Assembly (NCBI RefSeq): GCF_017355915.2
Contig: NZ_JAFEUV020000008.1
Location: 124,001-188,000, forward strand
Source: Telluribacter roseus
GTDB lineage: Bacteria; Bacteroidota; Bacteroidia; Cytophagales; Spirosomataceae
DNA length: 64,000 nucleotides
Direction of reading: 5' to 3'
Each line of letters starts with the position of its first letter. The stretch's first letter is position 1. Made by a program: the position numbers and the translations under genes. The notes under the pieces were generated by a model. It saw only the letters and a program-made list of their open reading frames with translations. It was not told the DNA's origin and ran no database searches. This document shows positions 9,430 through 21,160 of the stretch, piece by piece.

Positions 9430-9957
9430 ATGGCAGAGCTAACCGGAAAATATTTAGTTGGAGTATTTGATGATGATGATGTCATACTCCATGCAATACC
9501 TAAACTCCGTAAAGCAGGTGTGAAGATTCACGAAGTATACTCTCCCTTCCCGATTCACGGACTGGATGATGCACTCGGACATCCCCGCACTCGCATAGGT
9601 ATAGCCGCTTTCCTTTTTGGTCTGACAGGAGCCACTTGCGCTTTGACAATGATGACCTGGATGCTGGGCTATGACTGGCCTATGAACATTGGTGGTAAGG
9701 ATTACATCTCTCTCCCCAACTTCATACCCATTACTTTCGAGTTGACAGTACTTTTTACTGCATTCGGTATGGTGACTACTTTCTTCGTTACGAATGGTCT
9801 GAGTCCTAATCCGGCTCCTGTTTTGTTCGATCCCCGTTCAACTGACAATAAGTTTGTAATGGCCATTGAGATGGGTAAGAATAAGATGAGTGAGGAAGAC
9901 ATCACCAAGGCACTGAAAGACCTGGGTGCTGGGGAAGTCAACATCAAACAATTCTAA
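9430..9957 (+). CDS. actD: Alternative complex III subunit D (DUF3341)
   Basis: A 175-residue protein with two central membrane helices (about 55-80 and 95-120, the second in FIPITFELTVLFTAFGMVTTFF). The soluble N-terminal part begins LVGVFDDDDVILHAIPKLRKAGVKIHEVYSPFP-like, and FPIHGLDDALG is typical of ActD. It is a structural subunit thought to hold the quinol module together; no cofactor motifs are visible. It ends 13 bases before the chosen start of actE. Confidence 0.93.
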   Translation: MAELTGKYLVGVFDDDDVILHAIPKLRKAGVKIHEVYSPFPIHGLDDALGHPRTRIGIAAFLFGLTGATCALTMMTWMLGYDWPMNIGGKDYISLPNFIPITFELTVLFTAFGMVTTFFVTNGLSPNPAPVLFDPRSTDNKFVMAIEMGKNKMSEEDITKALKDLGAGEVNIKQF

Positions 9958-9970
9958 AAACATTGCACTG

Positions 9971-10627
9971 ATGAAATTTCAAGTTATAAATAAGTATGTA
10001 GGAGTTCTGGCAGTTGCTGCCATAGCTTTTACAAGTTGTAAGCGTGACCCGAATGATACTGGTTGGGAGTTTGCTCCTAACATGTACCGTTCAGTAGGCT
10101 ACGAAGCCTATAAGCAGGTAGAGAAGCACCCTATCAACCCCATGGGACTGAACATGCGCGAGCCGGTAAATGGTACTGTAGCTCGTCAGCATTATACCAA
10201 TGTCGGGGGGAGAGATTTTGGTGGAGGTGACTCTACGGCAGCCGTTAACTCCAACTCCACTACTATGGAGGGAAGTACTGATCTGATGGTATACAACATT
10301 CCAAAGGATAGTATCCGTACAGCTGAGCGAGTGCTCAAGAACCCTGTACCTCTGAATGAAAAGACCTTGGCTGAGGGTAAAGTTCTGTTTGAAAGATACT
10401 GCCAGCACTGCCACGGAGCAGAAGGAGAAGGTAATGGACCTGTTGCTGAAGTGTATAAAGGGGTACCTAACTACAAAGCTGCCAACTTCCAGGATATGAA
10501 CGACGGACATATCTTCCATGTGATCACACACGGTTGGGGACGTATGTGGCCTCATAAGTCACAAGTAACACCTGAGGAGCGTTGGGAAATTGTACACTAC
10601 GTACAACAGCTTAAAAAAGGATCCTAA
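9971..10627 (+). CDS. actE: Alternative complex III mono-heme cytochrome c lipoprotein
   Basis: 218 residues from ATG 9971 (MKFQVINKYVG). This start gives a lipoprotein signal peptide ending in AIAFTSC; an upstream in-frame ATG at 9926 would overlap actD and spoil the signal. A single CQHCH heme-c motif lies in the C-terminal class I cytochrome c domain, with a candidate axial Met in WGRMWPH. ActE is a lipid-anchored periplasmic cytochrome of ACIII and probably helps pass electrons to the oxidase encoded just downstream. Confidence 0.93.
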   Translation: MKFQVINKYVGVLAVAAIAFTSCKRDPNDTGWEFAPNMYRSVGYEAYKQVEKHPINPMGLNMREPVNGTVARQHYTNVGGRDFGGGDSTAAVNSNSTTMEGSTDLMVYNIPKDSIRTAERVLKNPVPLNEKTLAEGKVLFERYCQHCHGAEGEGNGPVAEVYKGVPNYKAANFQDMNDGHIFHVITHGWGRMWPHKSQVTPEERWEIVHYVQQLKKGS

Positions 10628-10657: not shown

Positions 10658-12004
10658 ATGGCATCAGTACACGCGATTCCTTCTATAGAAGAACGATTTG
10701 AATTTACTTCCGGTGCGAAACGAAATCTACTGATTGGTGGAGCCATTGGACTGGCTCTGATCATCATCGGTGCGTTTCTGTTGGCAAACGGTAGTGGACA
10801 TGAAGCTGCTCACGGCGCAGAACATGCTGCGGCTGCCGGAGCAGACCATGGCGCTACTGCCGCTCAGCATGAGGCTGGCGCAGCAGGAGGACACGGTGGT
10901 AGCAGCTGGATGACCCGTATCTGGGCTAACATCTGGCTCAATGCGGTATATTTTACCGGAATTTCAGTAATAGGTATGTTCTTCATGTCCTACAATTACC
11001 TGGCACAGGCAGGATGGTCAGTTGTATTCAAGCGTATTCCTGAAGCTCTTCCTTCTTTCCTTCCTGTTACAGGAGCGGTCATGCTGATCACATTCTTCCT
11101 GGGTGGGCACGATTTGTTTCACTGGACTCACGAAGAACTATATGATGCAAGCAACGAAGGCTTCGATGCAATCATTAATGGTAAGAAGGGCTTCCTTAAT
11201 ACTCCCTTCTTCCTGATACGTCTGGTTCTTTATTTTGTTGGCTGGTACTTTCTATGGACTGTACTCAGAAAAGCCTCTCTGGAAGAAGACCAGATTGGCG
11301 GCCTCACGAACTATGACAAGTCAGTGAAGTATGGTACTGCCTTCCTGGTATTCTTTGCAGTTACTTCGTCTACTTCAGCCTGGGACTTTGTGATGTCAAT
11401 CGAGACACACTGGTTCAGTACTATGTTTGGCTGGTACACCCTGGCAAGCTGGCACGTAACAGGTCTGGCTGTAATCACTCTGATGGTAGTTACTTTACGT
11501 GAAAGAGGATATCTGAAGGCTGTAAACCATAGCCACCTGCAGGACCTTGGTAAGTTTGTTTTTGCATTTAGTATCTTCTGGACCTACGTTTGGTTTGCTC
11601 AGTTTTTGTTGATTTACTACGCTAACTTACCCGAAGAAATTATCCACTATAAGGAGCGTTTTAGCGGTTATGGCGGCATCTACAGAGCACCATTCTTTAT
11701 CAATCTGATACTAAACTTTTTCTTTCCGTTCCTCGTTCTAATGACAAGGGATTCTAAGCGTACTCACAGTATTTTGAAGCTTGCTTGTTGGAGTATTATT
11801 GTGGGTCACTACTTCGATTTCTACAACAACATCATGCCTGGTACAGTAGGTGCTAACGCTGGTTTTGGACCTGTAGAATTCGGCTTCATTCTAGTATTTG
11901 CATGTGCTTTCATCTGGTTTGTTTCTGCACAGTTAGCCAAAGCGAATCTGATTCCAAGGAACCATCCTATGCTGGAAGAGTCATTGCATCATGATATAGC
12001 TTAA
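10658..12004 (+). CDS. actF: Alternative complex III subunit F, NrfD-like
   Basis: A 448-residue polytopic membrane protein, the second NrfD-like subunit of ACIII (annotated as quinol:cytochrome c oxidoreductase quinone-binding subunit). It has about ten hydrophobic helices. An unusual His/Ala/Gly-rich stretch (about 48-85: GHEAAHGAEHAAAAGADHG and following) lies in the first loop after helix 1. That loop could bind metal, or be only a flexible linker. The TSSTSAWDFVMSIETHWFST segment is strongly conserved in the family. The gene lies 30 bases after actE and 23 before coxB. Confidence 0.93.
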   Translation: MASVHAIPSIEERFEFTSGAKRNLLIGGAIGLALIIIGAFLLANGSGHEAAHGAEHAAAAGADHGATAAQHEAGAAGGHGGSSWMTRIWANIWLNAVYFTGISVIGMFFMSYNYLAQAGWSVVFKRIPEALPSFLPVTGAVMLITFFLGGHDLFHWTHEELYDASNEGFDAIINGKKGFLNTPFFLIRLVLYFVGWYFLWTVLRKASLEEDQIGGLTNYDKSVKYGTAFLVFFAVTSSTSAWDFVMSIETHWFSTMFGWYTLASWHVTGLAVITLMVVTLRERGYLKAVNHSHLQDLGKFVFAFSIFWTYVWFAQFLLIYYANLPEEIIHYKERFSGYGGIYRAPFFINLILNFFFPFLVLMTRDSKRTHSILKLACWSIIVGHYFDFYNNIMPGTVGANAGFGPVEFGFILVFACAFIWFVSAQLAKANLIPRNHPMLEESLHHDIA

Positions 12005-12027: not shown

Positions 12028-13161
12028 ATGGTTTATATTATAGGAATACTTACCCTTGTCTTTCTGGTGCTCACTGTCATGGTGGTCGCAAGATTGCGTA
12101 ATGTTGTTAAAGGTGTAAATGCAGGCACGGAGGAAACTCGACCTGAGAATATCCCTTCAGGCAACCGTTGGAATGCAAATCTCTTTATCTTATTTACAAT
12201 TCTTAGTCTAATTGCCGTAGTAGGAACACACATAGCTGCCAGAGAAGATCTTCTTCCGGTAGCTTCCTCAGTACACGGACGTCGTCTGGATGACCTGTTC
12301 TGGTTTTCTATGGGTGTGTTAGCTATTCCTTTTGTAGCGGTTAACGTTGTATTGTTCTACTTTGCTTACAAGTATCAGTACAAGCCAGGTAGAGTAGCTA
12401 CATATTATCCTGAAAACCATAAGCTGGAGATTATCTGGACTGCCATTCCGGCTGTCGTGATGGCCCTGCTGGTATTCACCGGCTGGAGAGCCTGGTCGGA
12501 TATCACTTCTGATGCTCCCGCTGACGCCGAGGTAATCGAGATAGTTGGAAAACAGTTTAACTGGATTGCCCGTTACGGTGGAGTTGAAGATAACCGTCTT
12601 GGTAACTACAACTTCAAACTTATTGATGCTCAGAATGAGGTAGGTATAGATTTGAGTGATGAAAGCTCACTGGATGATTTTACCAATAATACAGAGCTTC
12701 ATATTCCAGCTGGTAAGCCTGTGCTTCTGAAGATCAGAGCCCGTGATGTACTGCATAGTGTATTTATCCCTCATATGCGGGTAAAGATGGATGCGGTGCC
12801 TGGTATGCCTACTAAGTTTTGGTTTGTAGCAGATAAAACAACCAATGAGATTCGTGCTGAGCTTGGTAAGCCTGATTTTGATTATGAGCTTGCCTGTACA
12901 GAGATCTGTGGTCGTGGTCACTTTGCTATGCGTATGCGCGTTATTGTGGAGGATGAAGCTTCTTACCGTAGATGGGTTTCTGAGCAGAAAACATTCCTTC
13001 AGACATATCCTGAGTATCTGGCCAAAGTGCCTGATAACCTGAAGTCGAAGGCGATGAAGTATCTGCCTGAGCCTACAGCTCCGGCAACAGCCCCAGCTGA
13101 TAGTGCTACAGCTGAGAATGCCGGTTCTGCGGGTGCAGGAGCAAGTGCATCGGTACGTTAA
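12028..13161 (+). CDS. coxB: Cytochrome c oxidase subunit II
   Basis: 377 residues. Four hydrophobic segments precede the periplasmic cupredoxin domain: about 2-23, 50-70, 90-115 and 135-153. The binuclear CuA ligands are visible: His in VLHSVFIPHM, then C290-x-E292-x-C294-x-x-x-H298 and M301. There is no fused C-terminal cytochrome c; the tail is Ala/Pro/Thr-rich. The protein therefore needs an external cytochrome donor, presumably the cytochrome c domain of ActA or ActE. Oxidase genes directly following act genes are typical of Bacteroidota, where ACIII and aa3 oxidase form a supercomplex. Confidence 0.96.
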   Translation: MVYIIGILTLVFLVLTVMVVARLRNVVKGVNAGTEETRPENIPSGNRWNANLFILFTILSLIAVVGTHIAAREDLLPVASSVHGRRLDDLFWFSMGVLAIPFVAVNVVLFYFAYKYQYKPGRVATYYPENHKLEIIWTAIPAVVMALLVFTGWRAWSDITSDAPADAEVIEIVGKQFNWIARYGGVEDNRLGNYNFKLIDAQNEVGIDLSDESSLDDFTNNTELHIPAGKPVLLKIRARDVLHSVFIPHMRVKMDAVPGMPTKFWFVADKTTNEIRAELGKPDFDYELACTEICGRGHFAMRMRVIVEDEASYRRWVSEQKTFLQTYPEYLAKVPDNLKSKAMKYLPEPTAPATAPADSATAENAGSAGAGASASVR

Positions 13162-13191: not shown

Positions 13192-15075
13192 ATGTCATCA
13201 TTAGAGACAGGAATTGACATTACAAAGGTGCACGACGATGATCACGCGCACCATGAGGAGTTGAGCTTCTGGCGTAAGTACGTTTTCTCAGAAGATCATA
13301 AAGTGATCGCAAAACAATACCTGATAACAGGTATTTTCTGGTCAATCATCGGATTGGCTATGTCAGTAATATTTCGTTTGCAGTTGGGTTTTCCAGGTAT
13401 TGATATATCATGGCTGAGACCTATACTTGGGCAGTGGATTGATGAGTCGGGTAAACTGGATCCCAACTTCTACCTGGCTCTGGTTACGATGCACGGTACC
13501 ATCATGGTGTTCTTCGTACTTACTGCCGGATTGAGTGGTACTTTCAGTAACTTCCTCATTCCCCTGCAGATTGGTGCCCGCGATATGGCATCAGGGTTCC
13601 TGAATATGCTTTCCTACTGGTTCTTCTTCCTGGCCGGTGTGATCATGTTCATCTCTCTGTTCATTCAGACAGGTCCTGCCTCGGGTGGTTGGGTAGTATA
13701 CCCTCCTTTGAGTGCACTTCCTCAGGCTATGCCAGGCTCGGGCTTAGGTATGTCGCTATGGCTGGTGAGTATGGCGCTGTTTATCGTGTCGCAGCTACTG
13801 GGTGGTATCAACTATATCACAACAGTGATTAACCTGCGTACACGTGGTATGTCCTTCAACCGTCTTCCTCTGACGATCTGGGCATTCTTTATCACGGCCA
13901 TTCTGGGTTTGATTTCATTCCCTGTACTGTTCTCAGCCGCTCTGCTTCTGATCTTTGATCGTCAGTTTGGTACCAGTTTCTACCTGTCAGAGATCTATAT
14001 CAATGGTGAGGCACTGCCAAACGTAGGTGGTAGCCCTATCCTGTATCAGCACTTGTTCTGGTTCCTTGGGCACCCGGAGGTATATATCGTACTTCTACCT
14101 GCCCTGGGTATTACATCTGAGATCATTGCAACCAACTCACGTAAACCTATCTTTGGTTACCGTGCGATGATTGCTTCAATCATAGGTATTGCGTTCCTGG
14201 CATTCATCGTGTGGGCGCACCACATGTTCGTATCAGGTATGAACCCATTCCTGGGATCAGTATTCATGTTCCTGACGCTGATCATTGCAGTACCTTCGGC
14301 GGTTAAGGCGTTTAACTATACTACTACACTGTGGAGAGGTAATATCCGGTTTACACCAGCTATGCTGTTCTCAATCGGTCTGGTATCACTGTTCGTAACG
14401 GGTGGTTTGACTGGTATTATTCTTGGTAATAGTGCCCTTGACATCCAGCTGCACGATACCTACTTCGTGGTAGCGCACTTCCATATTGTAATGGGTGCGG
14501 CATCGGCCTTCGGACTTTTCGCTGGTGTATACCACTGGTTCCCTAAGATGTTTGGCCGTATGATGAATACCACACTGGGACAGATTCACTTCTGGGCTAC
14601 TTTTGTAGGAGTGTATCTGGTGTTCTTCCCGCTGCACTATACCGGTATCGCTGGTTTCCCACGTCGTTATTATACGTTCACCAGCTATGAGTTTACCAAG
14701 AGCTTTACTGATTTGAACGCTTTCGTAACGATTGCGGCTATCTTTACCTTCTTGGCTCAGTGGATATTTGTATGGAACTTCTTTTACAGCATGTTTAAAG
14801 GTAAGCTTGCTTCCAAGAACCCATGGCAGTCAAATACGCTGGAGTGGACTACTCCGGTAGTACCTGGACATGGTAACTGGCCTGGCGAAATTCCTGCTGT
14901 ATATCGTTGGCCATACGATTACAGTAAGCCTGGTGCAAAAGAAGATTTTATTCCTCAAACAGTACCTCACTCTCAGACTCCTGAATCTAACCTGCCTCAC
15001 GAAAATGAGGAGATAGCTATCGAGAAGGATATTGAGGCACAGAATTTCAATGACCAATTCAAAAACGCTCACTGA
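13192..15075 (+). CDS. coxA: Cytochrome c oxidase subunit I
   Basis: A 627-residue heme-copper oxidase core with twelve predicted helices. CuB and heme ligands are visible: HPEVY starting at His294 (the Tyr cross-linked to CuB His in A-type oxidases), the HH pair near 343-344 (VWAHHMFVSGM), and HFH at 429-431 (binuclear-centre heme ligand and helix X). The GHPEVY form points to an A1-type enzyme with Glu in the D-channel region. The N-terminal ~25 residues are His/Asp-rich. It reduces O2 to water with proton pumping. The 3' end overlaps the start of ctaA. Confidence 0.97.
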   Translation: MSSLETGIDITKVHDDDHAHHEELSFWRKYVFSEDHKVIAKQYLITGIFWSIIGLAMSVIFRLQLGFPGIDISWLRPILGQWIDESGKLDPNFYLALVTMHGTIMVFFVLTAGLSGTFSNFLIPLQIGARDMASGFLNMLSYWFFFLAGVIMFISLFIQTGPASGGWVVYPPLSALPQAMPGSGLGMSLWLVSMALFIVSQLLGGINYITTVINLRTRGMSFNRLPLTIWAFFITAILGLISFPVLFSAALLLIFDRQFGTSFYLSEIYINGEALPNVGGSPILYQHLFWFLGHPEVYIVLLPALGITSEIIATNSRKPIFGYRAMIASIIGIAFLAFIVWAHHMFVSGMNPFLGSVFMFLTLIIAVPSAVKAFNYTTTLWRGNIRFTPAMLFSIGLVSLFVTGGLTGIILGNSALDIQLHDTYFVVAHFHIVMGAASAFGLFAGVYHWFPKMFGRMMNTTLGQIHFWATFVGVYLVFFPLHYTGIAGFPRRYYTFTSYEFTKSFTDLNAFVTIAAIFTFLAQWIFVWNFFYSMFKGKLASKNPWQSNTLEWTTPVVPGHGNWPGEIPAVYRWPYDYSKPGAKEDFIPQTVPHSQTPESNLPHENEEIAIEKDIEAQNFNDQFKNAH

Positions 15076-16069
15076 GCGTAGAAATAATAATCGCCTCTTC
15101 CGGCGCCTGGCCCTGGTAACGGTTGCTATTGTTTACCTGCTGATCATGGTAGGTGGTATAGTTAGAAGTACCGGAGCAGGGATGGGATGTCCTGATTGGC
15201 CTAAATGCTTTGGTAGCTGGGTTCCTCCAACGGAGGAGTCCCAGCTACCTTTAAATTATAAGGAGATTTACGGTGCGAAACTGAAAGGAGAAGTGGAGTT
15301 CAATGCCGTAAAGACTTGGACCGAATATGTAAATCGCCTGTTTGGTGCATTTACTGGGTTGATGATTTTTGCTACTCTATTAGCTTCTATTCCTTTCCTT
15401 CGTTCGGATAAAGCTATTTTCTACCTGAGCCTTCTAACCTTTCTTCTGGTAGGCTTCCAGGGCTGGTTAGGTGCGAAGGTAGTTTCTTCGGAGCTGTTAC
15501 CGGTCATGATTACCCTTCATATGCTACTGGCCATTGTTATAGTGTTTATTCTGCTGTATGTACTGGCACGATCCTATGTAGGCACTATTCAGGTAGAAGC
15601 AGTACAGAACAAACCAAAGATCAATAGATTACTTATTGTGGTGCTGGTGCTGTCACTAGCCCAGGTACTGATCGGTACACAGGTTCGAGAAGCTATGGAT
15701 CTGGTCATTGATGATCTGGGCTATTCGGCACGTAACCAATGGATAGATGCACTAGGAGCTACCTTCTACATACACCGCTCCTTTTCTATAATCATAGTAG
15801 GGACCAATGCCTGGTTGTACTACTGGATCTATAAGTACTCGGCTGGTCACGGACCTATACGAATGTTAGCGAAGAGTATCATGGCAATTATTGCTGTGGA
15901 GATACTAACAGGAGTCGTTATGGCCTACTTAGCTGTACCTGCTCTTTCGCAGCCTCTACACCTTACTTTTGCTGTTGCCATGCTGGGGGCACAATTTGTA
16001 CTTTACCTGTTTTTGAACGCAGAAATCGTGTTCAGAACCAGTGCCCACAGTGAACTTAAAGTGGTATAA
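15050..16069 (+). CDS. ctaA: Heme A synthase
   Basis: About 339 residues, COX15/CtaA family, converts heme O to heme A for the oxidase. Visible hallmarks: the first-helix end GGIVRSTGAGMGCPDWPKCF with two Cys, WTEYVNRLFGAFTGL (Glu/Arg catalytic region), a His in ITLHMLLAIVIV, and the second half-repeat HRSFSIIIVGTNAW. Eight helices are expected. I chose ATG 15050, which overlaps the last 26 bases of coxA; an in-frame ATG at 15032 would add six residues. The overlap implies translational coupling. Confidence 0.93.
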   Translation: MTNSKTLTERRNNNRLFRRLALVTVAIVYLLIMVGGIVRSTGAGMGCPDWPKCFGSWVPPTEESQLPLNYKEIYGAKLKGEVEFNAVKTWTEYVNRLFGAFTGLMIFATLLASIPFLRSDKAIFYLSLLTFLLVGFQGWLGAKVVSSELLPVMITLHMLLAIVIVFILLYVLARSYVGTIQVEAVQNKPKINRLLIVVLVLSLAQVLIGTQVREAMDLVIDDLGYSARNQWIDALGATFYIHRSFSIIIVGTNAWLYYWIYKYSAGHGPIRMLAKSIMAIIAVEILTGVVMAYLAVPALSQPLHLTFAVAMLGAQFVLYLFLNAEIVFRTSAHSELKVV

Positions 16070-16120: not shown

Positions 16121-17014
16121 ATGATATCATCTGAAAGTAGCTTATCAACAGGGGAGAAAATTAGTGGAAAAGTAAAAGCACTATTTGAATTAGTAAAGTT
16201 CAGACTGGCTTCATTGGTGGCATTTTCCGGCGTATTTGGATATTCTTTAGGAGCAGAAGCCATTGACTGGCCCAAGCTGATATTGTTTTCGTTAGCTGCG
16301 ATCGGAATTACAGGAGCATCTAATACTATCAATCAGATCATTGAGAAAGATCTGGATAAGCTAATGAAACGGACGGCTAATCGTCCGCTGCCTAGTGGTC
16401 GGTTGTCGGTTGAGGAGTCTATCCTCTGGGCTGTGTTCTTAGGTGTAACAGCTATGTACATCTTCCTGGTGTACTTTAACCTTACTACCGCACTTCTGGC
16501 ATTGCTTTCTCTGATCCTGTACGGGTTTGTGTATACACCTCTTAAGCGGGTAGGCCCCATAGCTGTGTTTGTTGGAGCTATTCCGGGTGCTTTCCCTCCA
16601 ATGATCGGGTGGATTGCTGCTACCAATCAGTTTGGGCTTGAGCCGGGCATTCTGTTTGCGATTCAGTTTTTCTGGCAGTTCCCTCACTTTTGGGCTATTG
16701 CCTGGGTATTAGATGACGATTATAAAAAAGCAGGTTTTAAGCTGTTGCCTTCGCAGGGGGGAAAGGATCATCGTACGACGATCCAGATTATGATTTATAC
16801 CCTGTTCCTGCTACCGGTGGGATGGTTGCCCTTCGAGCTTGGAATGACTGATATCAATTCAGCTCTTGTAGCAACTGTTTGTGGAGTGTTCTTCCTGGCG
16901 CAAACGTTTCATTTAATGCGTAAGTGTTCTGATAAGACGGCAATGCAACTGATGTTTGGGTCTTTTATTTATCTACCCATCGTCCAGATCGCCTTCCTGT
17001 TGGACAAAATGTGA
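16121..17014 (+). CDS. ctaB: Protoheme IX farnesyltransferase (heme O synthase)
   Basis: 297 residues, UbiA superfamily. It transfers farnesyl to heme B to give heme O, the step before CtaA. The first Asp-rich motif is N71 to R84 (NQIIEKDLDKLMKRT) followed by ANRPLPSGR. Further conserved blocks are YTPLKRVGPIAVFVGAIPG and WQFPHFWAIAWVLDDDYKKA. About eight membrane helices. Its position between ctaA and the subunit III genes fits co-expression of cofactor synthesis with the enzyme. Confidence 0.96.
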   Translation: MISSESSLSTGEKISGKVKALFELVKFRLASLVAFSGVFGYSLGAEAIDWPKLILFSLAAIGITGASNTINQIIEKDLDKLMKRTANRPLPSGRLSVEESILWAVFLGVTAMYIFLVYFNLTTALLALLSLILYGFVYTPLKRVGPIAVFVGAIPGAFPPMIGWIAATNQFGLEPGILFAIQFFWQFPHFWAIAWVLDDDYKKAGFKLLPSQGGKDHRTTIQIMIYTLFLLPVGWLPFELGMTDINSALVATVCGVFFLAQTFHLMRKCSDKTAMQLMFGSFIYLPIVQIAFLLDKM

Positions 17015-17039: not shown

Positions 17040-17627
17040 ATGGAAAATATTCATCAACTACGTGCACAGCGGGAGCCTGAGGAAACCCTCTCGATGGACC
17101 CCAAGAAGTTTATACTTTGGCTGTTCATACTAAGTATCATAATGATGTTTGCTTCCCAGACTAGTGCCTACCTGGTGCGTAGAGCTGAAGGTAACTGGCT
17201 GGAATATGATATGCCTCAAATATTCTGGTATAGTACGGCTGTACTCGTTGCCAGTAGTATTTCAATGCACTGGGCGTACCTTGCGGCAAAAAAAGATAAT
17301 TTTAAAAGTTTAAGAATTGCAATTTCTATTACTTTTGTGCTTGGTTTGGTATTCCTATGGATGCAGTTCCTGGGTTGGAAGGCGCTGGTAGATATGAAGG
17401 TGTTTTTTGTAGGTAATCCCTCAGGATCCTTCTTTTATGTCTTCACCGGCTTGCATGGTTTTCACCTTATCACGGGGTTGATCGTGCTGGTTTTAGCTTT
17501 GTTAGCCGCTTTCCAGCTTCGTGTACATTCCAAAAACCTACGACGGATACAGATCTGTACAACGTACTGGCACTTTTTGGATATTCTGTGGGTATATTTG
17601 TTTTTCTTTTTATTGACTTTTAATTGA
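17040..17627 (+). CDS. Cytochrome c oxidase subunit III (shorter copy)
   Basis: 195 residues from ATG 17040 (MENIHQLRAQREPEE), 25 bases after ctaB. An upstream in-frame start would run inside ctaB. Five hydrophobic helices, with the family motifs FASQTSAYLVRRAEG, FYVFTGLHGFHLITGL and the C-terminal YWHFLDILWVYLFFFL (the conserved W-H-F-x-D). It is the first of two adjacent subunit III-like genes. Two such genes side by side are common in Bacteroidota; which one is in the purified oxidase, or whether both are, cannot be told here. Confidence 0.92.
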   Translation: MENIHQLRAQREPEETLSMDPKKFILWLFILSIIMMFASQTSAYLVRRAEGNWLEYDMPQIFWYSTAVLVASSISMHWAYLAAKKDNFKSLRIAISITFVLGLVFLWMQFLGWKALVDMKVFFVGNPSGSFFYVFTGLHGFHLITGLIVLVLALLAAFQLRVHSKNLRRIQICTTYWHFLDILWVYLFFFLLTFN

Positions 17628-17643
17628 TTAATTAAGTTAACCA

Positions 17644-18414
17644 ATGGCGTCTACTGCAACGACAACGAGCACGGTAAAACCCAGATTGTGGATGGGTGGT
17701 ATCGAGCCCATGAAAGCAAGCTACGGAAAATTGATGATGTGGTTCTTCCTCATCTCAGATACTTTCACTTTTTCAGCTTTGCTGGTATCTTACGGAATGG
17801 TTCGATTCAGCTACCCTGCTTACGAGGGAGCGGTTGAAGACTTTACCTTCTCCAATCTGTACTGGCCCATCCCTGAAAAAGTATACGAAGCAGTTCCTTT
17901 CCTGCATGGGGTTGAGCTGCCGCTGGTATTCGTAGGTATCATGACCTTCATCCTGATCTTTAGTAGTGTGACGATGGTATTGGCCGTAGAAGCTGGCCAT
18001 CGCATGGATCGTGCTGCTGTCGAAAAGTACATGCTATGGACGCTCCTTGGTGGTGTTACCTTCCTGGGCTGTCAGGCATGGGAGTGGGCACACTTTATTC
18101 ATGGAACTGAATCAGGTACTGTTATCCGCGAACTAGTCAATGGTAGCTGGGTAGAAAGAACGATCTACGGTGCCAACCTGGTGGAGAATCAATACGGACC
18201 TCCGGCTTTTGCTGATTTCTTCTTCTTCATCACTGGCTTCCACGGTACTCATGTATTTAGTGGTGTTGTACTTAACTTCCTGATTTTCTACCGTACTGCT
18301 ACTGGCATGTATGAGCGCCGTGGTCACTACGAAATGGTAGAGAAAGTAGGTCTGTACTGGCACTTTGTGGATCTGGTATGGGTATTCGTATTCACCTTCT
18401 TCTACCTGGTATAA
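17644..18414 (+). CDS. coxC: Cytochrome c oxidase subunit III (longer copy)
   Basis: 256 residues with seven predicted helices. Typical subunit III blocks: KLMMWFFLISDTFTFSALLV, TLLGGVTFLGCQAWEWAHFI, FFFITGFHGTHVFSGVVLNF and the terminal YWHFVDLVWVFVFTFFYLV. It starts 16 bases after the shorter paralog; their C-terminal halves share the HGxHxxxG and YWHFxDxxWV patterns, so they are distant duplicates. Subunit III stabilises proton uptake by subunit I. Confidence 0.95.
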   Translation: MASTATTTSTVKPRLWMGGIEPMKASYGKLMMWFFLISDTFTFSALLVSYGMVRFSYPAYEGAVEDFTFSNLYWPIPEKVYEAVPFLHGVELPLVFVGIMTFILIFSSVTMVLAVEAGHRMDRAAVEKYMLWTLLGGVTFLGCQAWEWAHFIHGTESGTVIRELVNGSWVERTIYGANLVENQYGPPAFADFFFFITGFHGTHVFSGVVLNFLIFYRTATGMYERRGHYEMVEKVGLYWHFVDLVWVFVFTFFYLV

Positions 18415-18452: not shown

Positions 18453-18779
18453 ATGGCAGATACACACGTACATGATCACGGACATGAGCATGGGGATGGT
18501 TCAGAACAGCGTAAAGCAATCTGGAAAACCTTCTTTATCCTGTCTGCTATCACAGCGGTTGAGTTCTTGATCGCCTTCACACTGGGTGCTGGTTTACTTA
18601 AAGTTGCGATCTTCATCGGATTGACTATTGTTAAGGCCTTCTATATTGTGGCTGAATTTATGCACTTAAAGCACGAGACGAAGTCACTGATCTGGTCTAT
18701 CCTAGTCCCCTGCATTTTTGTGTGTTGGTTACTAGTAGCTCTTATACTGGAAGGTGGTTCCATCTTCGATGTGCGCTAA
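18453..18779 (+). CDS. Cytochrome c oxidase subunit IV-like protein
   Basis: 108 residues with three hydrophobic helices and a His/Asp-rich N-terminus (HVHDHGHEHGDG, residues ~4-16). Resembles the small prokaryotic cytochrome oxidase subunit IV (CyoD/CtaF-type) with the typical KAFYIVAEFMHLKHE segment. Likely a structural or assembly subunit of the oxidase. The His-rich start may bind metal. Short, so family assignment leans partly on position after coxC. Confidence 0.85.
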   Translation: MADTHVHDHGHEHGDGSEQRKAIWKTFFILSAITAVEFLIAFTLGAGLLKVAIFIGLTIVKAFYIVAEFMHLKHETKSLIWSILVPCIFVCWLLVALILEGGSIFDVR

Positions 18780-18785
18780 ATAAAT

Positions 18786-19448
18786 ATGCAAAAGTTTCGT
18801 AAGGCCGGGCTGCTAATACTACTATTAGCAGTACCGGCTTTCATCTTTATTTTCCTTAAGCTCTTCGGGATTAATCATTACGATCTCCCCACCTTTCATC
18901 CGGCTAAGAATCCTACCACAGGTGAAGTTACGTTAAGTAACGGTGATACTGTTTACTATGCTGTCCAGGGACTGAAGCTTCTTAGTAGTAGAGATAGTGC
19001 CATGTTTACAGAGGCTAATCTGCGGGATAAGTTTACAGTAGCTCACGTACTTCCTACTGTTTGTAGCGATACCTGCCAAAAGGCACTGACTCAGCTTTCG
19101 AGGGTACATGATCTGACTCAGTCAATCCCCCAGCTGCAGTTTCTGACTATTACGGAAGGAGGTACCACAGGCCTGGATTCTCTCTCTAATCAGTATGGGA
19201 TGAACTCGGCATCCTGGGTAGTAGTTACCGGGAGTCAGGAAGAGGTGAACAGAGCCGCCGGTGAGGTAATCAGACTAAGTCAGAACATACCGGCCAGCAC
19301 GCAAACTATTTCGTTGAGTAATAGGTTAATTCTTATAGATGGAGTAGGTCATATCCGCGGCTACTACGATGCTCAGGATATAGAAGATGTGGATCGGCTG
19401 ATGGCCGAGATAAAGGTTTTGGAGTATAGTAATTCATTGAAAAAGTAA
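18786..19448 (+). CDS. SCO1/SenC-family copper chaperone
   Basis: 220 residues with an N-terminal membrane anchor (about 8-26) and a thioredoxin-like domain. The copper/redox motif is C93-S-D-T-C97, the CxxxC of SCO proteins; the third ligand is expected to be the His in GVGHIRGYYDAQD near the C-terminus. SCO delivers copper to, or reduces, the CuA site of subunit II. It starts six bases after the subunit IV gene stop and is clearly in the same operon. Confidence 0.92.
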   Translation: MQKFRKAGLLILLLAVPAFIFIFLKLFGINHYDLPTFHPAKNPTTGEVTLSNGDTVYYAVQGLKLLSSRDSAMFTEANLRDKFTVAHVLPTVCSDTCQKALTQLSRVHDLTQSIPQLQFLTITEGGTTGLDSLSNQYGMNSASWVVVTGSQEEVNRAAGEVIRLSQNIPASTQTISLSNRLILIDGVGHIRGYYDAQDIEDVDRLMAEIKVLEYSNSLKK

Positions 19449-19453
19449 CCCTC

Positions 19454-19993
19454 ATGGAAACGTTGGTTCTTGAGAAAAGCCCCAAGTACAATAGATTGAT
19501 CAATATTGTAGCGATACTGATACCCGTAGTGGTGTCGGTGCTACTGGGAGTGCGTCAGAAGGTAGATCTGGGAGAGTGGACAAAGGTACTTCCACACGTA
19601 AATGGTGTTATCAATAGTCTTACGTCACTATTACTGGTGGCAGGTTGGTACTTCGTGAGGAATGGTAATGTGAATGCTCATCGCAAATCAATGACTGCCG
19701 CTTTTGTACTGGGATCACTGTTTCTGGTAACGTACGTACTTTATCATCTTTCAAACGAATCTACCCCTTTTGGTGGAGAAGGTATAATCCGACCTGTGTA
19801 TTACTTCCTGCTCATATCGCACATTGTCTTGTCGATAGTAGTAGTATGGTTTGTACTGAGGGCCGTTTATTTTGCGTTTAGTAATCAGATTAGCGAGCAT
19901 CGTAAAGCTGTAAAGTGGGCGCTCCCGATCTGGTTATATGTAAGTGTAACTGGTGTAATTGTTTATTTACTTATTAGTCCTTACTACCAATGA
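19454..19993 (+). CDS. DUF420 (CtaM-like) oxidase assembly protein
   Basis: 179 residues, five hydrophobic helices, DUF420 family. Conserved His residues: HRKSMTAAFVLGSLFLVTYV, YHLSNESTPFGG, and a His in LLISHIVLSIVVVWFVLRA. The Firmicutes homolog CtaM is needed for maturation of aa3-type oxidases, so a role in heme or copper insertion is likely. It begins five bases after the SCO gene and its stop overlaps the next ATG by four bases (ATGA). Confidence 0.88.
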   Translation: METLVLEKSPKYNRLINIVAILIPVVVSVLLGVRQKVDLGEWTKVLPHVNGVINSLTSLLLVAGWYFVRNGNVNAHRKSMTAAFVLGSLFLVTYVLYHLSNESTPFGGEGIIRPVYYFLLISHIVLSIVVVWFVLRAVYFAFSNQISEHRKAVKWALPIWLYVSVTGVIVYLLISPYYQ

Positions 19994-20277
19994 ATAAGAT
20001 ACTAATGCGATGTGTAGCTATGCTGGTTGTGGTACTACTTACTACGGCCGATGTATGGGCGCAATGCGCGATGTGCCGTGGTTCGGTAGAGAGTACCATG
20101 GGAAATGGCCGCAATAACGTAGGAGTTGGTTTGAATACGGGTATTATGTACCTGTTCTTTATACCTTATCTGGCGGTAGCTATCATTGGGTACCTGTGGT
20201 ACCGCAATAGCAAGAAGCTAAGAGCAGAACGTCAGCTGGTCGCGTCGCGGATACAGCAGGCTTATCCCAAGCACTAA
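19990..20277 (+). CDS. Small membrane protein with N-terminal CAMC motif
   Basis: 95 residues, no family I can name. A Sec signal (about 1-25, ending DVWAQ) is followed immediately by C26-A-M-C29, a short Gly/Asn-rich stretch, one membrane helix (about 49-66, GIMYLFFIPYLAVAIIGYLW) and a basic Lys/Arg tail that should be cytoplasmic. Cleavage would place CxxC at the extreme N-terminus of the mature protein on the outer face. It is the last gene of the oxidase block and overlaps the CtaM-like gene by four bases, so a role in copper or thiol handling during oxidase assembly is a reasonable inference, not shown. Confidence 0.8.
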   Translation: MNKILMRCVAMLVVVLLTTADVWAQCAMCRGSVESTMGNGRNNVGVGLNTGIMYLFFIPYLAVAIIGYLWYRNSKKLRAERQLVASRIQQAYPKH

Positions 20278-20313
20278 TCAGCATGGCTGTACATAGCCAG
20301 CCAACGATACGTA

Positions 20314-20350
20314 ACAAAAAGCCCCGGGCCTTATGCCTGGGGCTTTTTGT
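20314..20350. terminator. Bidirectional terminator between oxidase operon and murI
   Basis: 16-bp stem (20314-20329 with 20335-20350, one G-T pair) around GCCCCGGGC with A-run on the left and T-run on the right, so it can end both the plus-strand operon and minus-strand murI. It abuts the murI stop codon. Confidence 0.92.
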
Positions 20351-21160
20351 TTATTCCCACAGCGGATAGTGGGACAGCTGAATCTGTTTGCCAAAGAATA
20401 GCCGGGTAGATGCCTCAAAGGACTGTGTATAGTCAGATACATAGAACCGGCGCTCGCCGGTACCTTTATCGTTGAGCAGGTAGTGCTGCTCCATCCAGGC
20501 CCTCAGCGACTGCGCTACAATTTCGGAGGTGTCAAGTATCTCTACTGTATCTCCGTAGTACTGCCCGATTTCTTTCTTGATAAGTGGGTAGTGCGTACAG
20601 CCCAGGATCAGTGACTCTATTCCTTCCAGCGCCGGGTCAGACAAGTACGTGGTAATGATACTTTCACTGATAGAATTATCAAAGAAGCCTTCTTCGATCA
20701 TGGGAGCCAGTAGCGGGGTAGCCAGTGACTTCAGCGTGATATTCTTATTTAGTACATCTACTTTCTTTTTATAGACATTTGATAGTACCGTTTGTTTAGT
20801 ACCTATCAGGCCCACAGTTTTACCATCGTACCGGTCTTTGATATAATCGACCACGGGGTCAATGACATTCATAACTTTTGCCTTGCTGCCGACGTACTCA
20901 CGCACCAGTTCATAAGCGGCCGCCGATGCCGAGTTACAGGCGATCAGTATAAGCTTGCACTGCTGCTGAAGCAGCATATTGCAGATCTTGATAGAATACG
21001 CCTGTATAGCGGCGGTAGATTTGTCGCCGTAGGGTAGGTGAGCGGTGTCACCAAAATAGATGGTATTTTCGCGGGGTAACAGCCGGGTAACCGCACTGGC
21101 CACAGTCATGCCACCGATACCGCTATCAAATATCCCAATGGGGGCAGAGGATTCAAGCAT
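20351..21160 (-). CDS. murI: Glutamate racemase
   Basis: 269 residues, Asp/Glu racemase family. It makes D-glutamate for peptidoglycan. The catalytic cysteine pair is visible: C75 in ACNSASAAAYE and C188 in GCTHYPLIK; the N-terminal IGIFDSGIGGMTV is the substrate loop. About normal length. Single gene on the minus strand, converging on the respiratory operon and diverging from the sigma-factor gene at 21251. Confidence 0.96.
   Translation of the reverse strand: MLESSAPIGIFDSGIGGMTVASAVTRLLPRENTIYFGDTAHLPYGDKSTAAIQAYSIKICNMLLQQQCKLILIACNSASAAAYELVREYVGSKAKVMNVIDPVVDYIKDRYDGKTVGLIGTKQTVLSNVYKKKVDVLNKNITLKSLATPLLAPMIEEGFFDNSISESIITTYLSDPALEGIESLILGCTHYPLIKKEIGQYYGDTVEILDTSEIVAQSLRAWMEQHYLLNDKGTGERRFYVSDYTQSFEASTRLFFGKQIQLSHYPLWE

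Follow-up and report, generated by a model that had tools for sequence, protein, structure and literature searches.

What does a protein of only 95 residues contribute at the end of an operon for a respiratory oxidase? In the window—the whole 64,000-nt stretch of the Telluribacter roseus genome analysed here—the open reading frame at 19990–20277 (+) encodes such a protein, which we call the CAMC protein after its motif C26-A27-M28-C29 (codons at 20065–20076). The original prediction had read the frame in just this way and rated its product a good candidate for an oxidase assembly factor not described before, a view supported by co-occurrence with the oxidase subunit CoxB and with DUF420 in 97 of 97 homolog-bearing genomes.

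The CAMC gene and its operon

Within the part read, the genes of the locus lie on the forward strand in the order ActE-like, ActF-like, coxB, coxA, ctaA, ctaB, coxC, coxC, coxD, SCO, DUF420 and CAMC. The first two (9926–10627 and 10658–12004) we take to encode an ActE-like mono-haem cytochrome c and an ActF-like subunit of alternative complex III, respectively. CoxB (subunit II; 12028–13161) carries the CuA motif CxxxCxxxHxxM and scored 137.3 bits with TIGR02866, below the cut-off of 147.7, while CoxA (subunit I; 13192–15075), CtaA (haem A synthase; 15050–16069) and CtaB (haem O synthase; 16121–17014) were named by sequence; used as a query, the window's CoxA gave E < 1e-60 in 18 of 18 chosen genomes. 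Two tandem subunit III genes, a shorter one at 17040–17627 (PF00510, E = 1.8e-15; searched from 17034) and a longer one at 17644–18414 (PF00510, E = 3e-10), are matched as a pair in most of the linked loci compared. Downstream are encoded CoxD (prokaryotic subunit IV; 18453–18779; PF03626, E = 2.3e-15), a SCO-like protein with a CxxxC motif (18786–19448; PF02630 (SCO1-SenC), E = 3.8e-5, 24.1 bits vs. a cut-off of 22.8) and a DUF420 (CtaM-like) protein of 179 aa (19454–19993; PF04238, E = 2.2e-46).

As predicted, the stop codon of the DUF420 gene and the start codon of the CAMC gene overlap by four bases (ATGA, 19990–19993). The CAMC gene had also been said to follow a SCO gene; there is one upstream, but it ends at 19448 and the DUF420 gene, starting at 19454, sits in between. 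That the CAMC gene closes the operon agrees with an intrinsic terminator downstream of it, a 17-bp stem at 20313–20351 (+) with a folding energy of −29.5 kcal/mol (z −7.1; 0 of 200 shuffles as good). When the entire region was scanned for terminators by a simple method, the sites did not exceed the chance rate (8 vs. a shuffle mean of 9.6), so we count the fold of 20313–20351 alone as evidence. The stem is flanked by A and T runs and might terminate not only the oxidase operon but also the next gene, which is convergent (20351–21160, −) and presumably murI-like.

The CAMC gene is present in one copy in its own genome, where the other four matches had E-values of 0.2 or worse. Its ortholog in Telluribacter humicola encodes a protein of 92% identity, with a dN of 0.042 and a dS of 1.6 over the gene and a dN of 0.012 and a dS of 2.0 over the mature part. 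This was the one pair for which dN/dS could be estimated—five other pairs gave no dS—and it indicates that the gene is under purifying selection. Given the identity within Telluribacter, the dN/dS and homologs in 97 of 392 genomes, 19990–20277 is a real gene.

Architecture and novelty of the CAMC protein

The protein is composed of a signal peptide (residues 1–24), Q25, the CAMC motif, an outer segment reaching to about residue 50, a hydrophobic stretch (~51–71) that forms a single membrane helix after the signal peptide, and a basic tail; one membrane helix and a basic tail had been foreseen. The cleavage site, read by eye, is V22-W23-A24|Q25, so that the predicted mature protein starts with Q-C-A-M-C. 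The cysteine motif, which had been placed at the extreme mature N-terminus, is therefore near that end, but Q25 precedes it and the first cysteine is residue 2. An AlphaFold2 model consists of the signal helix and the membrane helix, the latter spanning residues 44–91 with a mean pLDDT of 80, compared with only 59–66 for residues 21–50. Between the first cysteine and the helix lies a median of 23 residues in the 121 sequences measured, of which 116 have a tail of net positive charge; under the positive-inside rule, such a tail puts the CxxC on the outside.

For closer reading we assembled 106 homologs, 10 from a separate set of loci, which may duplicate species of some of the 392 phylum genomes, and 96 from those genomes themselves. 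In all 106, the signal peptide is followed by the pattern [ASG]Q(G)CxxC, with Q directly ahead of the first cysteine in 105 and QG in one, and the CxxC was likewise retained in 14 of 14 divergent homologs from other classes, although this conservation stems in part from search profiles that themselves conserve CxxC. Homologs lacking the motif, which would have spoken against the original prediction, were thus not what we found. In 13 of the 14 divergent homologs the first cysteine is preceded by alanine; as the CxxC is kept where alanine replaces glutamine, it is the CxxC, not the glutamine, that looks functional. These homologs (L142–L155) begin with ACPxC, ACSTC or SCPMC, and the LTAC of L152 and the VTAC of L154 resemble lipoboxes, so that the first cysteine might be lipidated there. 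Among the 121 sequences, the two residues inside the motif differ (CAMC in 77, CSIC in 9, CPMC in 6, CPNC in 6, and others), one of the 121 (L146; true motif CPSC, then S) having been read at an incorrect CxxC further upstream, and 117 have exactly two cysteines in the mature part. Further conserved positions, G51, I52 and P59, lie at the start of the helix.

The sequence at the cleavage site also bears on the fate of the mature N-terminus. The paper on the Bacteroidetes Q-rule describes how cleavage by signal peptidase I leaves an N-terminal glutamine that is then converted to pyroglutamate, and calls the rule untried on inner-membrane proteins (PMC5837995). The site pattern of that rule, a small residue followed by glutamine, is what [ASG]Q before the CxxC provides in all 106 homologs, and Q(pyroGlu)-C-A-M-C is the most likely mature N-terminus as judged from the sequence. 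We rejected two other readings of the cysteines. In the window's class, a lipoprotein does not fit a site with no small residue at −1 and with Q before the cysteine. A c-type cytochrome is incompatible with the absence of CxxCH, as the residue after the CxxC is R, K, T, S, A, Q, G or I, but never H, in the 121 sequences.

Does the CAMC protein belong to a described family? Searches of Pfam and NCBIfam with a threshold as loose as E 1 gave no match. When 48 diverse members were compared with Pfam, the matches were scattered and weak; among the 25 of 29 matched families listed, the best were DUF334 (E = 2.5e-4, one member) and NdhL (0.001 or worse, six members), both of which we take as helix noise. 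The best NCBIfam match of the 48 members had an E-value of 0.0025, no PDB sequence matched the protein or its family better than E 0.97, PHROGs gave weak, scattered matches only, and a plasmid search for the protein gave no match. Nor did we find a paper describing the family in the literature searched, which left most subscription journals outside. The CAMC protein represents a new protein family within a known kind of process.

Several known factors share single features with it. Cox11/CtaG (PF04442), the CuB factor of proteobacteria and mitochondria, is likewise tied to the aa3 oxidase and has one helix with outer-face cysteines near the membrane; however, the CAMC protein does not match it up to E 1, the family is absent among the 25 of 29 listed for the members, and the CAMC protein has no beta-domain and shows the reverse order, CxxC first and then the helix. 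SCO1/SenC (PF02630) proteins are similarly exported, membrane-anchored, equipped with a cysteine pair and encoded in the same operon, but their CxxxC resides in a thioredoxin fold, whereas the CAMC protein, which has no match to the model, bears a CxxC in a segment of ~23 residues. DUF420/CtaM (PF04238) is a four- or five-helix protein with conserved histidines and without sequence similarity to the CAMC protein, whose single helix contrasts with the four or more of that family and which does not match the model. PCuAC (PF04314) and CtaK/YtkA are also small extracytoplasmic proteins, linked to CuA assembly, yet they are folded domains, and the PCuAC profile matched neither the CAMC protein nor, among the 25 of 29 families listed, its family members. 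CcoS (TIGR00847), finally, is small, membrane-bound and oxidase-linked, but only one of the 48 members matches it (E 0.02 only), and CcoS belongs to the cbb3 oxidase, which the CAMC protein does not follow.

Distribution and gene neighbourhood

Among 392 genomes of the phylum, 103 had a match at E up to 0.01, and the 97 with E-values of 2.8e-7 or better were counted as homolog-bearing; the other six (9.8e-4 or worse) were set aside as chance hits, as were the weak second matches of G103 and G328. All 97 also match DUF420 and CoxB, the latter counted from E 1e-6, where many matches are below the curated cut-off and the control E. coli matches too. Within the window's class, 92 of 105 genomes have the CAMC protein, and the 13 that do not have neither CoxB nor DUF420; these 13 come from three families and so perhaps reflect three joint losses.

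Outside the class the association is looser. A search with a better profile (A2) covered 69 of the 103 DUF420-positive genomes that have no counted homolog, all 69 from other classes (the remaining 34 belong to family f24), and recovered a homolog in 14 but no convincing one in 55. The 14 divergent homologs are full-length matches at E up to 0.003, of which L155 (E 0.003) was accepted on motif and place; L156 was left out of the set, and L157 gave no homolog. Equally, no convincing homolog was found in 11 of 11 CoxB-positive, DUF420-negative genomes, and we recognised no CAMC protein in 20 stretches read around DUF420 in homolog-less genomes. We therefore rejected the notion that the protein always accompanies DUF420 or the aa3 oxidase in the phylum. 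Homologs this short and fast-evolving can be missed outside the window's class; still, the many oxidase genomes of other classes without a homolog imply that the function is dispensable there or performed otherwise.

Which respiratory complex does the protein follow? All eight genomes of family f6 have FixO, of the cbb3 oxidase, and lack both CoxB and a CAMC homolog, FixO is absent as well from the other five CAMC-negative genomes of the class, and it is missing from three of 12 sampled homolog-bearing genomes (G007, G041, G115). Three genomes dissociate the CAMC protein from alternative complex III: G012, the one f6 genome tested for ActF, has it but neither CoxB nor a CAMC homolog, and in G298 and G208 a CAMC homolog occurs alongside cox genes without an ActF match. 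The CAMC protein follows the aa3 oxidase, and not cbb3, alternative complex III or cytochrome c maturation. With ActF present and CoxB absent, the alternative complex III of G012 may feed another oxidase.

Gene order points the same way, as 87 of the 106 homologs are encoded within ~8 kb of cox, ctaA or ctaB; together with the CoxB matches in 97 of 97 genomes, this is the opposite of a family found mostly without cox genes, the finding that would have weakened the original prediction. In 80 of the 106 loci the CAMC gene directly follows DUF420, with a short overlap in 35 of the 80 (a number that depends on the chosen starts). It comes after CoxD in five f21/f28 genomes and at both f48 loci, and after SCO or CoxC at three of four f23 loci and in L185. 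The 14 divergent homologs all lie in cox clusters, behind DUF420 (seven, with a gap in L175), CoxD, SCO or CoxC. A constant place next to DUF420 is thus rejected by the f21/f28, f48, f23 and L185 arrangements and by that of family f5.

Family f5 contributes 14 of the 19 unlinked loci. In 12 of its 14 genomes, coxB, coxA, ctaB, coxC, coxC, coxD, SCO and DUF420 stay together without the CAMC gene; of the two exceptions, L217 shows coxB to coxD without SCO or DUF420, and L210 shows coxA, coxB and ActF only. All 14 nevertheless keep the CAMC protein elsewhere in the genome. The 19 unlinked loci have neighbours that we take to be typA-like in seven cases and coaX-like in six. One of them, G158, is likely unlinked through an assembly break, its DUF420 ending 335 bases and its homolog starting 659 bases from contig ends. 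In family f7, the CAMC gene stays with ctaB-coxC-coxC-coxD-SCO-DUF420, and it is coxA and coxB that are split off; in G021 (L227) the two parts are ~23 kb apart, and in 11 of 12 fetched stretches (L227–L238; eleven f7 genomes and one f10) there was no CoxB within ~20 kb upstream. As f7 separates the structural genes coxA and coxB themselves, leaving the operon is no mark of a factor alone.

The CuA motif was present in CoxB at all 52 read loci with both CoxB and the CAMC protein and at 21 further CoxB loci without a CAMC protein, 76 of 76 CoxB reading frames in all; the CoxB of G021 has it too, f7 being represented in this reading by two genomes only. In DUF420, H76, H123 and H149 are invariant in 126 of 126 aligned proteins and H98 is found in 118. 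A CxxxC occurs in 97 of 113 SCO-like proteins, and 36 of 43 CtaA proteins have a cysteine pair near the N-terminus.

Cox11 (PF04442) was detected in four of 392 genomes (three over the cut-off; the control Caulobacter matches) and in none of the 105 of the window's class. Further searches covered 72 chosen genomes, made up of 40 own-class genomes with and 13 without the CAMC protein and 19 with it from other classes. SURF1 was found in none of the 72, including the 53 of the window's class, PCuAC in five, all from f21/f28 and thus in 0 of 53 own-class genomes sampled, and Caa3_CtaG in three, two over the cut-off, one of them the T. roseus genome itself; two of the 53 own-class genomes have it, and a homolog is present in G033 as well. 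The T. roseus copy (L174:8691-9497, −; G000:C6:327735-328415) adjoins a small membrane protein, and none of the searched cox genes is within ~8 kb of it; that of G033 adjoins a second, divergent CoxA. In G018 and G073, a Cox11 cluster (L172, L173; with ActF, CtaA and CtaB) has no CAMC protein, and a second cox cluster (L130, L124) has the CAMC protein and SCO but no Cox11. This alternation fits a Cox11-like role for the CAMC protein, as seen in two genomes of one genus.

Candidate roles in oxidase assembly

Slightly more likely than not, in our view, the CAMC protein serves the CuA-type aa3 oxidase as a dedicated assembly factor through which copper or thiols are handed on. Sec would export it and signal peptidase I would cut before Q25, which would probably become pyroglutamate; the single helix would anchor the protein in the inner membrane, leaving 20–25 residues outside with the CxxC close above the bilayer. 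At the outer membrane face, the CxxC could act as a Cu(I) carrier or thiol donor, and copper might pass via DUF420/CtaM to the CAMC protein and on to subunit I (CuB), or else to SCO and subunit II (CuA). Copper binding, the partner, the site served and the status of a factor rather than a subunit are what we infer from these comparisons, and a CxxC by itself would also fit a disulfide, a Zn site or a redox pair.

In favour of an assembly factor we count the co-occurrence with CoxB and DUF420, the conservation of the CxxC, the CuA motif, purifying selection, the lack of Cox11, PCuAC and SURF1 in the window's class, the alternation with Cox11 and the retention of the gene elsewhere in f5. Against it we count the DUF420- or CoxB-bearing genomes without a homolog, the split in f7, Caa3_CtaG in the T. 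roseus genome and G033, and PCuAC in f21/f28.

Both S. aureus and B. subtilis need DUF420/CtaM for their aa3-type oxidases, and in B. subtilis haem a and haem a3 form without it (PMC9145763). In a 2026 study on B. subtilis, CtaM is proposed to export copper for oxidases or to support its export, and the exported copper may then bind Sco, a model that the authors call speculative (PMC13344008). Taken with an outer CxxC encoded behind SCO and DUF420, this proposal would make the CAMC protein best read as an acceptor or thiol partner on that route of copper.

Alternatively, the CAMC protein could be a small structural, or supernumerary, subunit, either in the aa3 oxidase itself or in the supercomplex that the oxidase forms with alternative complex III; its CxxC would then engage subunit I, II or III through a disulfide or a structural metal site. 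Respiratory complexes often contain accessory subunits with a single helix, and the strict tie to CoxB in the class, the proximity to cox genes in 87 of 106 loci and the conserved G51, I52 and P59 at the helix start would all suit such a role. We nonetheless hold it to be unlikely: in 12 of 14 f5 genomes the structural genes remain together and the CAMC gene is elsewhere (though f7 splits the structural genes), in 80 of 106 loci it directly follows DUF420, an assembly gene, and no PDB chain is similar, although a model for the oxidase portion of the F. johnsoniae supercomplex may be missing from the PDB.

Less probable still, and in our estimate quite improbable, is a thiol-disulfide partner that never carries copper and whose task is to maintain, in reduced form, the CuA cysteines of CoxB, SCO's CxxxC or a cysteine pair in CtaA. 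Its possible substrates do have such pairs (CoxB in 76 of 76, SCO-like proteins in 97 of 113, CtaA in 36 of 43), and 117 of 121 mature sequences contain two cysteines only, but a thioredoxin fold is too large for an outer segment of 20–25 residues. That the protein merely lies in the cox operon and serves cytochrome c maturation, alternative complex III or cbb3 is exceedingly improbable, for although ActE- and ActF-like genes lie upstream in the window and in many homologous clusters, and ActF occurs in 13 of 15 homolog-bearing genomes tested, the eight f6 genomes with FixO and G012 with ActF have no CAMC homolog, G298 and G208 have one without an ActF match and G007, G041 and G115 without FixO, and histidine never follows the CxxC in the 121 sequences.

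The assembly factor can be given a more specific, and accordingly tentative and rather doubtful, form: DUF420/CtaM would move copper out, and the mature CAMC protein of ~70 residues would take it on its CxxC and deliver it to CuB, standing in for Cox11 in much of Bacteroidota. If true, this would be a copper relay for the aa3 oxidase unlike the Cox11/PCuAC route, and among dedicated oxidase metallochaperones the CAMC protein might be the smallest. Bacteroidota are aerobes that abound in soil and sea, and the protein bears on how copper reaches CuB and CuA in bacteria without Cox11 and PCuAC. As the searched libraries hold no curated family for it, a regular component of these genomes has been invisible in annotation. 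In all 105 genomes of the class the protein is present or absent together with CoxB, and an outer CxxC is found in every homolog read, which offers an entry to this question through a single gene.
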